Origin: Craspedostauros australis
Taxonomy: Eukaryota > Bacillariophyta > Bacillariophyceae > Mastogloiales > Achnanthaceae
Reading direction: 5' to 3'
Assembly (NCBI GenBank): GCA_026770025.1
Contig: JAMXDE010000043.1
Coordinates: 496,001-560,000 of the forward strand
Length of the DNA stretch: 64,000 nt
In this document: positions 53,433 through 56,465 of the stretch, in pieces
Layout: every line of letters starts with the position of its first letter
Position numbering within the stretch: the stretch's first letter is position 1
The notes under the pieces: generated by a model
Told to the model about the DNA's origin: nothing
Database searches by the model: none
What the model saw: only the letters and a program-made list of their open reading frames with translations
Translations under genes and position numbers: made by a program

Positions 53433-54239
53433 ATGACAACAGGCATGACTCGTATTTCGTTGGCAGCATCGAAGCCTGCAGCTCTGGGACAACGATTGGG
53501 TGCTGTTCTGTGCTCTCGTCCTGCATCCTTGTCACCATTGACAAGCATCAGAGCAGCAGCAGCACGAACAACAACAACAACAGCCATGCCAATCAGGCAG
53601 CAGCACACGGCATCCACCATCCAACAACCATGGAGGATCACCGCCAATCAGGCAATTCAATCAAGGCGCCATCCCCTCGCATTCACACGCAGATCCATGG
53701 TGCAGATCACGCAAACGAAGGTCTCTCAGTTGTCGCCAGATGCTTCTATCGCCAGCGAACCAACTGTGACGAACACTAGCAGCAACATCAATGACAGCGC
53801 TGACAACAACAACAACAACAACAACACTACGACCGAATTCCTGCAACAGTACGAACTAGTATCGCAGGAGATACTGACGGTCACGGAAAGTTGCTTGAAA
53901 CAGATCGAGGTCTTGATTCAGAAACAGCCACAAACGGGCCACTACTTGCGCGTCTACGTCGACGCCGGCGGCTGCTCCGGCTTCGAATACAAATTCGAAT
54001 TGTGCCACGACGACCTCGAGGACGACGACATCGTCGTGGCCACAAAACGAGATGGTGCCACGCGGCTCGTCGTCGATGAGACCTCCCTCAACTTCCTGCG
54101 CGGCAGCACCATCGATTACGTGCGCGAGATGATCCGCTCCAGCTTCGTCGTGTCGCATAATCCACAATCGGAATCGGCCTGCGGATGCGGCTCGTCGTTC
54201 GCCGTCAAGAACTTTGGCTCCAATCCGGCTTTGGATTGA
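53433..54239 (+). CDS. Mitochondrial A-type iron-sulfur assembly protein (ISCA2-like)
   Basis: This ORF encodes 268 aa from ATG 53433. A-type carriers bind iron or an Fe-S cluster through three Cys and deliver it to [4Fe-4S] enzymes. The HesB/IscA domain occupies about 140-268: a helical start (ELVSQEILTVTESCLKQI), RVYVDAGGCSGFEYKFEL (C181), VVDETSLNFLRGSTIDYV, and ACGCGSSF (C250, C252). All three ligands are present. The first ~130 residues are Arg/Ser/Thr/Gln-rich with almost no acids and then Asn-rich, fitting a long mitochondrial presequence plus linker. The VDETSLNFLRGSTIDYV segment is typical of ISCA2 more than ISCA1. It is divergently transcribed from the HSP90 gene. Confidence 0.92.
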   Translation: MTTGMTRISLAASKPAALGQRLGAVLCSRPASLSPLTSIRAAAARTTTTTAMPIRQQHTASTIQQPWRITANQAIQSRRHPLAFTRRSMVQITQTKVSQLSPDASIASEPTVTNTSSNINDSADNNNNNNNTTTEFLQQYELVSQEILTVTESCLKQIEVLIQKQPQTGHYLRVYVDAGGCSGFEYKFELCHDDLEDDDIVVATKRDGATRLVVDETSLNFLRGSTIDYVREMIRSSFVVSHNPQSESACGCGSSFAVKNFGSNPALD

Positions 54240-54286: not shown

Positions 54287-54730
54287 CTAACATTGTTTCG
54301 CAGCACGATTCTTGGACGCCGTCAGCAGTTGCTCTTGCGCGCGTTCCATCTCTTCGAGTTCTGATTTGGAAGGCTTTCGCTTCGAGCGTTTGGAGGGTTT
54401 CTGAGATGATGATGATGATTTGCGTTTGGCAATCGTCGTAGTTGTCTCAACCGCGGCCTGATGAGCTTGCTGAAATAAAGATTGAAAGTCCGGCAACGAC
54501 GCGAAGGCTTTGTGCAGATCTTCAATCGAAATTGCCCGGTTGGTATCTTCCTCATCGCAGTACGTGACCAACCGCTTGGCGACGATCTGCAAGAACGAGA
54601 GATGCAGTATGCGCAAGGTTTGGACGGAGGCGTCCGTGAAGGCCACGTCCTCCGAACACTTCTGCAACGATTCCCAAAACACCGGCGCGTTGATGCAAAA
54701 GTGTGTTGGCGGTGATCGTTTGGCGGACAT
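54287..54730 (-). CDS. Small histone-fold-like nuclear protein
   Basis: This ORF encodes 147 aa from the ATG at 54730. The frame stays open to 55135, but that extension runs through a tRNA locus and is rejected. Residues about 12-85 read as a histone fold: a short helix (APVFWESLQKC), then VAFTDASVQ leading into a long helix (TLRILHLSFLQIVAKRLVTYCDEED), then NRAISIEDLHKAFASL. The last resembles the loop-2/helix-3 signature of NF-YB, DPB4/POLE3 and TAF-type folds. The tail is rich in Lys and Ser (KRKSSSSSQKPSKRSKRKPSKS), a probable nuclear signal, followed by an acidic-basic helix. A partner histone-fold subunit would be expected. The assignment is by pattern only. Confidence 0.6.
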   Translation of the reverse strand: MSAKRSPPTHFCINAPVFWESLQKCSEDVAFTDASVQTLRILHLSFLQIVAKRLVTYCDEEDTNRAISIEDLHKAFASLPDFQSLFQQAHQAAVETTTTIAKRKSSSSSQKPSKRSKRKPSKSELEEMERAQEQLLTASKNRAAKQC

Positions 54731-54875
54731 GGTTTGTGTTTGGCGCTGTGGGATGGAGAGTGGTGTGGCGATAGCGCTTGTTCGGGTCTGTGCTGTGCTC
54801 TCTTGTTGTGCTTGGATTTGTGGCAGCAAAACGAGAACAACGAGCAAATCGCCACAACATGCAGCTGCGCAAAAC

Positions 54876-54880
54876 AAAAA
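54876..54880 (-). terminator. RNA polymerase III T5 terminator of the permuted tRNA
   Basis: On the minus strand five T lie four bases after the end of the 5' half, with a further T4 at 54874-54871. Its position after the 5' half, not after the 3' half, supports transcription of the locus in permuted order. Confidence 0.75.
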
Positions 54881-54884
54881 GAAG

Positions 54885-54961
54885 TCGTAGTCAGACGCCT
54901 TGCCGTTGGGCCAACAGGTCTCCAGAAACCTGCCCGGGATTCGAACCCGGAATCTTCTGAT
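54885..54961 (-). tRNA. Circularly permuted tRNA-Arg(ACG)
   Basis: Reading the minus strand, the 3' half comes first (54961-54926): base 38, anticodon-stem TCAGA, variable loop AGATT, T arm CCGGG-TTCGAAT-CCCGG, acceptor GCAGGTT, then T73. Five bases (CTGGA) follow. The 5' half then runs 54920-54885: acceptor GACCTGT, TG, D arm starting GCCC, G26, anticodon-stem TCTGA and CTACGA. All seven acceptor pairs form (two G-U), and all five anticodon-stem and all five T-stem pairs form. Joining gives the anticodon loop CTACGAA, anticodon ACG (read as ICG). The B-box (GGTTCGAATCC, 54947-54937) precedes the A-box (TGGCCCAACGG, 54913-54903), the reverse of a normal gene. A T5 run follows at once. Around the junction AGAA can pair with TTCT, leaving 7-nt strands in which two 3-nt bulges (ACA, GAC) are cut between bases 2 and 3, and C32 pairs with a G three bases before base 38. 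The U73 discriminator is unusual. Confidence 0.88.
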
Positions 54962-54970
54962 GTCAAGTTC

Positions 54971-55115
54971 TGCCAACATTGCATCAATCAATGTTTCTAA
55001 TCTCTTGCCAAATATGTCCATAATTTCATTTGGTTGAATGTGTTGACGCCTGCAGTGGAAACATGGCAACGAGGTAACCACAGAATGTAAAGAACATCGA
55101 GCAGACGACGAGTAC
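54971..55115. other. Short gap upstream of the permuted tRNA
   Basis: On the minus strand this lies between the stop of the FkbM gene and the tRNA. It is AT-rich in part (GGACATATTTGG about 60 bases upstream of the tRNA). No gene is visible. Confidence 0.4.
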
Positions 55116-56465
55116 CTACATACGCAAGGATTCACCCTTCTTCAGCGTCTCCAGGAACATGGCCTCCATCCGCGATGCCAACGACTTGGCTTCCAGCATG
55201 CCCACATGCACGCAGGCCACATTGGACCAGTACCGATGCCGATAGTGCTTCTGCCAGCAGCCCGTGATCCTCCAGATATTCCCATTCGTCCCGGGCCAGT
55301 AGCACACGTAGCCGTGTCCTTGCAACATATCGATCGCGTCCCGCAACCTCTGCGTCTTCCATTTACCTTTCCAATTGTACTCAAATTCCAGGTACTGCAC
55401 CTGCTGCTGTGCCAGCAATTTCTGTCCACCCAACAGCACATCCAGATCGTATCCTTCCACGTCGATGCTGAGGAAATCGATCGTGCTGCTGGCGTCGCCG
55501 GTCATATACGACAGCGTTCCGACGTAGTCATCCAAAGTGTAGACCGGTATTTCGCTGCACAGTTTCACATCCTTGCCGTTTGCGTGAAGCTGCTGCTGCC
55601 GACGGCAATGATGCTCGAAATCCTTCAATCCACCCGATTCCGCACCCAGCAAGAACCGATCCGAGACCTGCATCGTGCCGCGATCCATGGCAAACGCTGC
55701 CTGCTCCAATATGAAGTCGTTGTTCCACTGCAGATGCAGCTTGGAACGGTACAGTTTCTCGAACGTCGCCGACACGGGCTCAAAACAGTACACGGTGGCT
55801 GGTCGGACCGACGTCGCCTGCACGTCGACTTGCGCCTTGTCGAACTGCGCGCAACTGCTGCCGGCAAAGCCCGATGCGTTATGTTGTTGCGCCGTTTGCG
55901 ATTCCGACGATAACAGCGCGGATTTCCACACGTCGACATCGTACTTGGCATTCTGGCTGCCCATGCGCAATGCATTGACGGCATCGATGCCTTTGTTGCA
56001 TCCGACAAAGAAGCTGACAAAGTGATCGTGCGATGCCGTCGTCGAGTACTCGGGTTGCAGCCACCGCATCGAATCGGGACAGCTCGTGGCACGCGAGAAG
56101 GAGCAGTTGCTGGTCCAGGGGAACTTCTTGTGCTTCTTGCAGTCCAATTCGGGCAGTTGCACGGAGAGGATCTCCATCTGTTCGGCTGTGCAATTGGGAT
56201 GATGCGTCGCGATTTCCAGTTGTGGGTCCAGTCTTCGATTGATGGTGCTGGCGGATGCCGCTGTCAACGCATTCTGCGGATGTGTCTTTGGCAATGAATG
56301 GAAGGATCCATCCCTCTTCATCATGCCTATTGCGGACGGCTGTGATTGCAACACGGATGCGTGTTTGTTCAGGTGATGGGAAAGGAAGATCGGGCTCAAC
56401 GTGACGAACGCAATGGCCATCACGAGCAGCACCCGCACGGGCCGGATCGTCCTGGTCCTCCTCAT
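55116..56465 (-). CDS. FkbM-family methyltransferase with signal anchor
   Basis: This ORF encodes 449 aa from the ATG at 56465. A basic start followed by a single hydrophobic stretch (~11-28, VLLVMAIAFVTLSPIFL) suggests a type II signal anchor, so the catalytic part would face the Golgi/ER lumen or the cell exterior. Family marks are FFVGCNKGIDAVNAL (SAM-binding region, ~155-170), TVYCFEPVSATFEKLY (~240-255), PVYTLDDYVG and IDFLSIDVEGYDLDVLLGG (~335-355). FkbM-type enzymes O-methylate sugars or other small hydroxylated substrates. The diatom versions are numerous and uncharacterised. Many Cys in the luminal part fit an oxidising compartment. The substrate is not readable. Confidence 0.85.
   Translation of the reverse strand: MRRTRTIRPVRVLLVMAIAFVTLSPIFLSHHLNKHASVLQSQPSAIGMMKRDGSFHSLPKTHPQNALTAASASTINRRLDPQLEIATHHPNCTAEQMEILSVQLPELDCKKHKKFPWTSNCSFSRATSCPDSMRWLQPEYSTTASHDHFVSFFVGCNKGIDAVNALRMGSQNAKYDVDVWKSALLSSESQTAQQHNASGFAGSSCAQFDKAQVDVQATSVRPATVYCFEPVSATFEKLYRSKLHLQWNNDFILEQAAFAMDRGTMQVSDRFLLGAESGGLKDFEHHCRRQQQLHANGKDVKLCSEIPVYTLDDYVGTLSYMTGDASSTIDFLSIDVEGYDLDVLLGGQKLLAQQQVQYLEFEYNWKGKWKTQRLRDAIDMLQGHGYVCYWPGTNGNIWRITGCWQKHYRHRYWSNVACVHVGMLEAKSLASRMEAMFLETLKKGESLRM

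Follow-up and report, generated by a model that had tools for sequence, protein, structure and literature searches.

How can a complete transfer RNA be obtained from a locus at which the 3′ half of the molecule is encoded ahead of the 5′ half? This question is raised by a 64-kb stretch of genomic DNA (the whole stretch that was analysed, here called the window, on the contig labelled C41), where the two halves of a tRNA-Arg(ACG) lie on the minus strand in inverted order and 5 nt apart, as the initial annotation had claimed and as a direct reading from 54961 to 54885 confirms. From comparisons across the genome, the locus is very probably a functional permuted tRNA-Arg(ACG) gene of type II, in which the junction falls between positions 37 and 38, and, with four further copies dispersed over the genome, it would form the likely sole source of cytosolic tRNA-Arg(ICG).

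The recurrence of the arrangement carries much of this reading. When the genome (74.8 Mb in 90 contigs) was searched by BLAST with the 85-base permuted unit, five matches were returned, all covering the full query in the permuted order at 94–100% identity, and these are located on C41 (the window), C14, C33, C43 and C3. In all five loci the 3′ half stands upstream of the 5′ half on the same strand, and the 72 tRNA positions show zero differences among them. The spacers between the halves are 5 or 6 nt long and differ from locus to locus (CTGGA, CTGGT, GTGAT, GCGGAA, and CTCGGT), the flanks gave no mutual blastn match at an E-value of 1e-3, and the mean flank identity (ungapped, in register) is 29% over the upstream 60 nt and 30% at 15–75 nt downstream, with a maximum of 40%. 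In the alignment the shared unit of the five loci stops at the tRNA halves. Hence conservation is limited to the tRNA positions, the spacer excluded, which fits selection on the mature tRNA, and since nothing beyond the tRNA unit is shared, the permuted copies may owe their spread to an RNA or a circular-DNA intermediate. An exact copy of the permuted unit was not found in viral contigs. Two other gene structures were considered for these loci and rejected, namely a tRNA with a conventional 37/38 intron, as the order is reversed in all five and the exact anticodon arm with an insert of 0–30 nt has 0 matches in the genome, and split (trans-spliced) tRNA genes, as the halves are only 5–6 nt apart at every locus.

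The features of the window locus, all on the minus strand, are as follows; the names of the two promoter boxes follow common usage.

54926..54961, minus strand: 3′ half of tRNA-Arg(ACG), A38 to U73, holding the 3′ strand of the anticodon stem, the variable loop, the T arm, the 3′ strand of the acceptor stem and U73; identical in the five loci and matched by both covariance models (R1 and R2, below)
54921..54925, minus strand: intervening sequence CTGGA linking the two acceptor strands; its sequence and length vary among the five loci
54885..54920, minus strand: 5′ half of tRNA-Arg(ACG), G1 to A37, holding the 5′ strand of the acceptor stem, the D arm, the 5′ strand of the anticodon arm, the anticodon ACG and A37; identical in the five loci
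54937..54947, minus strand: B-box-like sequence GGTTCGAATCC, upstream of the A box
54903..54913, minus strand: A-box-like sequence TGGCCCAACGG, downstream of the B box
54876..54880, minus strand: T5 run, the likely RNA polymerase III terminator; a run of T4–T7 is present in the five loci
54968..54971, minus strand: leader strand AGAA (−10 to −7) of the outer helix of a junction resembling a bulge-helix-bulge (BHB), pairing with 54883–54880
54880..54883, minus strand: trailer strand TTCT (+2 to +5) of the outer helix, its last base overlapping the T5 run
54964, minus strand: leader G at −3, facing C32; G in the five loci
54991..55006, minus strand: A+T-rich stretch 30–45 nt upstream, TATA-like at best and not specific to permuted genes

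Once the halves are put back into conventional order, the 72 nt are recognized by ARAGORN as tRNA-Arg(acg), with a complete acceptor stem (the first pair being G-U), full anticodon and T stems and a D stem of three pairs in which C13 stands opposite A22, so the acceptor, anticodon and T-stem pairs all form on reordering, as had been proposed. In native order, ARAGORN reports no tRNA in 500 bases around the locus, and neither ARAGORN nor Rfam (gathering thresholds) reports one over the whole window. A covariance model of rotated tRNAs, R2, was built from ten conventional nuclear tRNAs of the same genome and zero permuted sequences, and it scored the window locus at 59.7 bits compared with 8.4 bits for the next best place in the window, while the other four permuted loci scored 53.2–60.9 bits. 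The corresponding values for model R1 are 81.2 and 11.1 bits, partly by construction, as its training set included three permuted sequences. The permuted arrangement at the window locus is more than chance. The initial annotation had listed the G1-U72 pair as a caveat, and this carries little weight because the conventional tRNA-Arg(TCG) of the same genome also has G1-U72.

The bases around the junction resemble a splice site. They were numbered backwards from A38 into the leader and forwards from A37 into the trailer, and the expected register, trailer +2 opposite leader −7, is that of a BHB with 3-nt bulges and a four-pair core. In this register the five loci form outer helices of 4, 2, 2, 4, and 4 consecutive pairs, a sum of 16, compared with sums of 0–7 in 20 other registers; 0.025% of 20,000 shuffled leaders attain the sum of 16, and 16 of the 20 outer-helix cells in the five-locus alignment are paired. 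The +2/−7 pair is AU, CG, or GC depending on the locus and the +3/−8 pair is AU or GC, each being paired in all five. With the partners shifted by 1–3 columns, pairing over the whole scored structure, a figure that includes the invariant anticodon stem, falls from 92% to 30–48%. Shuffles equalled the covariation score in 10 of 500 cases and the share of paired cells in 17 of 500. A pair between the intron and C32 of the anticodon loop is used by the eukaryotic tRNA splicing endonuclease, and the leader base at −3 is a G facing C32 in each of the five loci. The outer pairing AGAA/TTCT, the pair of C32 with G and the cut sites at 37/38 all agree with the earlier description.

In the proposed pathway, transcription by RNA polymerase III would run from the leader through the 3′ half, the spacer and the 5′ half into the trailer and end at the T run. 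In the folded transcript, the junction would be flanked by the anticodon stem and a short helix of leader and trailer. The tRNA-splicing endonuclease would cleave after A37 and before A38, a ligase would link A37 to A38 to give a circle, and maturation by RNase P and tRNase Z would excise the 5–6 nt spacer from the acceptor loop. CCA would then be added, A34 converted to inosine and the tRNA presumably charged. Matches to the splicing endonuclease family PF01974 were one above the cut-off (C12, E 1.7e-9) and one below it.

A candidate stop signal for such a transcript lies at the downstream end. A run of T4–T7 begins 3–7 nt after A37 in all five permuted loci (T4 background, 50 of 1025 15-nt windows), no T4 occurs between the halves in any of them, and by this placement the two halves form a single predicted transcription unit. 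For comparison, 33 conventional nuclear tRNA genes were used (34 less L033, which is on the plastid contig), and 30 of them have a run of T4 or longer within 25 nt. The position of the B box upstream of the A box and the T5 run after the 5′ half, both noted initially, are seen in the sequence, and with the B box before the A box the usual TFIIIC spacing is lost. An upstream promoter special to permuted genes was not found: the A+T fraction at −45 to −30 is 0.73–0.93 in the five loci and overlaps that of the 33 conventional genes (mean 0.71, standard deviation 0.13). The sequence ACATATTT is present in the upstream regions of two of the five permuted and one of the 33 conventional genes. The TFIIIC B-block profile gave one weak match (21.5 bits) and is uninformative, with 8 of 14 prokaryote controls also matching.

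A conventional tRNA-Arg(ACG) was not found among the best 63 of 1610 tRNA candidates, which were those scored. Nuclear contigs hold 35 of these 63, and ARAGORN, applied to 33 of the 35, identified Arg(TCG) and Arg(TCT) and not Arg(ACG); one candidate, L016, was called Sec with a long intron and is read here instead as Ala(CGC). BLAST with both halves returned nothing beyond the five permuted loci. A pattern extending from the anticodon loop to the T loop, with a fixed variable loop of 5 or 4 nt and one mismatch allowed, gave 12 matches in the 5-nt form (20 for the reversed control) and 4 in the 4-nt form (37 for the reversed control). Both known conventional tRNA-Arg(TCG) genes were recovered as one-mismatch matches, an internal control, and two of the other fourteen matches, an exact match on C12 (L146, which has no Rfam match) and one inside L080, were checked and neither is a tRNA, the remainder being judged by their letters only. 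A conventional tRNA-Arg(ACG) is likely absent from the genome, and the full set of conventional genes that would have spoken against the initial annotation did not appear within these limited searches.

To our knowledge, wobble rules leave CGC and CGU in eukaryotes to be read solely by the ACG (inosine) tRNA. In the 14 open reading frames (ORFs) of at least 300 amino acids in the window, which were defined mechanically with introns ignored, CGC and CGT make up 244 of 540 Arg codons, with CGC the commonest (165) and CGT contributing 79. The circular pathway would be essential in this genome, since the codons concerned are common and no other tRNA for them was found; the permuted tRNA-Arg(ACG) family is real and conserved, and it is probably essential. 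The more far-reaching proposal, that the conventional gene has been lost and that the whole cytosolic supply of tRNA-Arg(ICG) comes via circular RNA from the five permuted genes, is judged to be reasonably probable.

A number of observations weigh against a functional gene family. The searches behind the likely lack of a conventional gene were limited, covering the best 63 of 1610 candidates and fixed-spacing patterns. In two silicon-transporter ORFs, CGC and CGT account for only 5 of 20 Arg codons. At the junction, the number of pairs changed on both sides was matched by 78 of 500 shuffles and that of further pair types by 109 of 500, and the covariation evidence is modest because there are five sequences and two of the five measures are unexceptional. 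The central helix is weak, with 11 of 20 possible core pairs over the five loci (2, 2, 2, 3, and 2 of four), so that the earlier caveat of two of four pairs in the window locus proves to be general. In RNAfold minimum structures the junction helix is clear in only two of the five loci, the window and L012 (a YrlA match also seen on L012, E 0.51, was weak and was taken as chance). The RtcB ligase was not found in the genome by a search that was positive in 9 of 14 controls, and the Trl1-type ligase model PF09511 was not found either, but no control was positive for it. Lastly, the earlier caveat about U73 concerns a base that is unusual here, A73 being present in the conventional Arg(TCG) and Arg(TCT) of the same genome; U73 is conserved in all five loci. 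Relaxed BHB forms have been described for known permuted tRNA genes (PMC3978253), and for this reason the weak central helix is not taken as excluding the present loci from that group.

In an improbable alternative, the loci are non-functional permuted relics, i.e., duplicated or retroposed pseudogenes, and the cell uses a conventional tRNA-Arg(ACG) that was overlooked among the first-look candidates, of which 63 of 1610 were scored; the weak junction core speaks for this. Against it stand the 72 positions unchanged in five copies with unrelated flanks, the junction helix retained in all five loci at +2/−7 and +3/−8 with changes on both sides, the T runs at every locus and the failure of BLAST and pattern searches to find a conventional gene. 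It is less probable again that the circular or half-tRNA product serves mainly as a regulatory small RNA and not as a decoding tRNA; the unusual U73 would be accommodated, whereas the canonical tRNA fold is complete and no other reader of CGU and CGC was found, yet these codons are common in the window ORFs. Slightly less credible still is a mobile element resembling a short interspersed nuclear element (SINE) that carries permuted tRNA halves by chance: the copies are indeed dispersed without common flanks in a genome that has a tRNA-derived repeat family, but the shared unit stops at the tRNA halves, the copies are undecayed and there is no target-site-like duplication above chance (5–6 nt repeats, shuffle P 0.14–0.60). 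An assembly join, which the initial annotation had named as a way to overturn its claim, or a chance arrangement has a negligible probability and is rejected, as five contigs carry the permuted order and the R2 scores are 59.7 vs. 8.4 bits. The reading as a permuted tRNA-Arg(ACG) gene is supported by the four additional copies, the conservation of the halves, an in-register helix that resembles a splice site and the failure of these searches to find a conventional gene.

Permuted tRNA genes are a known kind of gene. By 2014, 34 of them had been reported in six algae and one archaeon; the list in that article includes no Arg(ACG) gene and no tRNA with more than two copies in a species, and the intervening sequences between the acceptor strands range from 1 to 74 nt, within which the 5–6 nt spacers described here fall (PMC3978253). 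A word search of the same article gave no mention of either diatom or stramenopile. Permuted tRNA genes of Auxenochlorella were added in 2025 (PMC12636532). In Ostreococcus, Micromonas and the Bigelowiella natans nucleomorph the junction is type II (37/38) as in the present loci, except in one O. tauri gene, both B. natans nucleomorph genes have a 5-nt spacer like that of the window locus, and these prasinophyte and B. natans junctions suit the ordinary eukaryotic splicing endonuclease, as here. However, the genes concerned are those for Ser, Leu, Cys, iMet, Arg(TCT), and Asn in green-lineage genomes, with no Arg(ACG) and no five-copy gene in the table (PMC3978253).

Eukaryotic nuclear permuted genes that have several junction positions resemble the present loci in having a T run and, upstream, a TATA-like region, and for these a circular intermediate and aminoacylation were reported, as was one two-copy case, Gly(CCC); they differ in that some have added introns and the Arg gene is Arg(CCT) with the junction at 59/60 (PMC3978253). 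In the trebouxiophyte green alga Auxenochlorella, permuted genes were found after an incomplete tRNAscan-SE set (PMC12636532). In the archaeon Thermofilum pendens, genes with reversed halves are the sole source of their anticodons, as is proposed here, but the junction is at 59/60 and the machinery is archaeal (PMC3978253). No published permuted tRNA gene in a diatom or stramenopile was found in the open-licence literature that was searched, and on missing tRNA genes in diatoms nothing relevant was found, including in PMC8007984. Hence, as far as was searched, the lineage is new to permuted tRNAs.

If the far-reaching proposal above holds, we know of no earlier case of this kind in stramenopiles, and the family would be the largest for one tRNA when set beside the list in PMC3978253. 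So far, permuted genes have been described in red algae, green algae, a nucleomorph of green origin and one archaeon, and a diatom family would add a branch; a five-copy family in a likely diatom would argue for repeated origin from ordinary splicing machinery. With halves that stay constant and junctions that change, the five loci are natural variants that lend themselves to working out the requirements of the splicing endonuclease, and genetic tools exist for diatoms. Since ARAGORN and the Rfam tRNA model miss permuted genes, other diatom annotations may lack tRNA-Arg(ACG) likewise.

The host is likely a diatom, with other silicified ochrophytes a formal possibility. The silicon transporter family PF03842 has 88 matches in the genome, 32 of them nearly full length and 28 of these without internal stops, a count far above any known to us for a diatom, and two contigs with a permuted tRNA, C3 and C14, also carry partial PF03842 matches. 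The plastid rbcL is red-type, and its best PDB matches (1047–1070 bits; the next, 926) are 7yk5, 5mz2, 5n9z, 5oya, and 6ftl, which we take to be diatom Rubiscos; we are aware of no other ochrophyte rbcL among the matches. These two lines of evidence support the term diatom-like used in the initial annotation. As read from translated frames, genes of the mitochondrion lie on C83 and those of the plastid on C90; C89 has the same organellar tRNA set as C83, which suggests that C83 and C89 represent the mitochondrial genome in two assemblies or two forms.

Further permuted tRNAs were sought by way of the B-box pattern GGTTCGANTCC, which has 412 genome sites compared with 81 for a reversed control. 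The 100 of these 412 sites that were listed (C1–C6) include one known permuted copy, that on C3, and four known conventional tRNA genes, and 75 of the other 95 sites are covered by the 73 stretches that were taken, one of which holds three. ARAGORN found conventional tRNAs in 18 of the 73. The best R1 and R2 scores in the 73 stretches are 27.1 and 25.5 bits, within a tRNA-derived repeat, and the low E-values among those repeat matches (5e-7 and 9e-7) are explained by the T arm. A further permuted gene was not found in these stretches, the expected R1 and R2 scores of other isotypes being uncalibrated.

The tRNA-derived repeat is present in 13 of the 73 stretches (L074, L103, L107, L118, L122, L129, and L139–L145) and has a TATAAA-like stretch, A and B boxes and an odd anticodon loop. 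Four pairs of repeats are 456–457 bases apart, with one copy of each pair followed by the same downstream sequence, as if they were terminal direct repeats of an element. L112 and L120 are related tRNA-like sequences, the former scoring 46.6 bits as tRNA-Sec (cut-off 47), with UCA not plain in the anticodon loop. Short B-box sequences recur in L092/L097, in L093/L108/L131 and in L084/L104, some with a T run after them, and may be repeats or as yet unnamed genes of RNA polymerase III.

The permuted tRNA gene has as neighbours two ORFs on the minus strand, 55116–56465, with an FkbM methyltransferase domain, and 54287–54733, which starts at an inner ATG and has no family assigned; a plus-strand ORF at 53433–54239 carries an Fe-S biosynthesis domain. 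Two longer mechanical frames on the minus strand, 54287–55021 (244 codons) and 54322–54984 (220 codons), are open through the permuted tRNA, and this is probably incidental because both halves of the tRNA are found again at the four other loci, where the flanks are unrelated.
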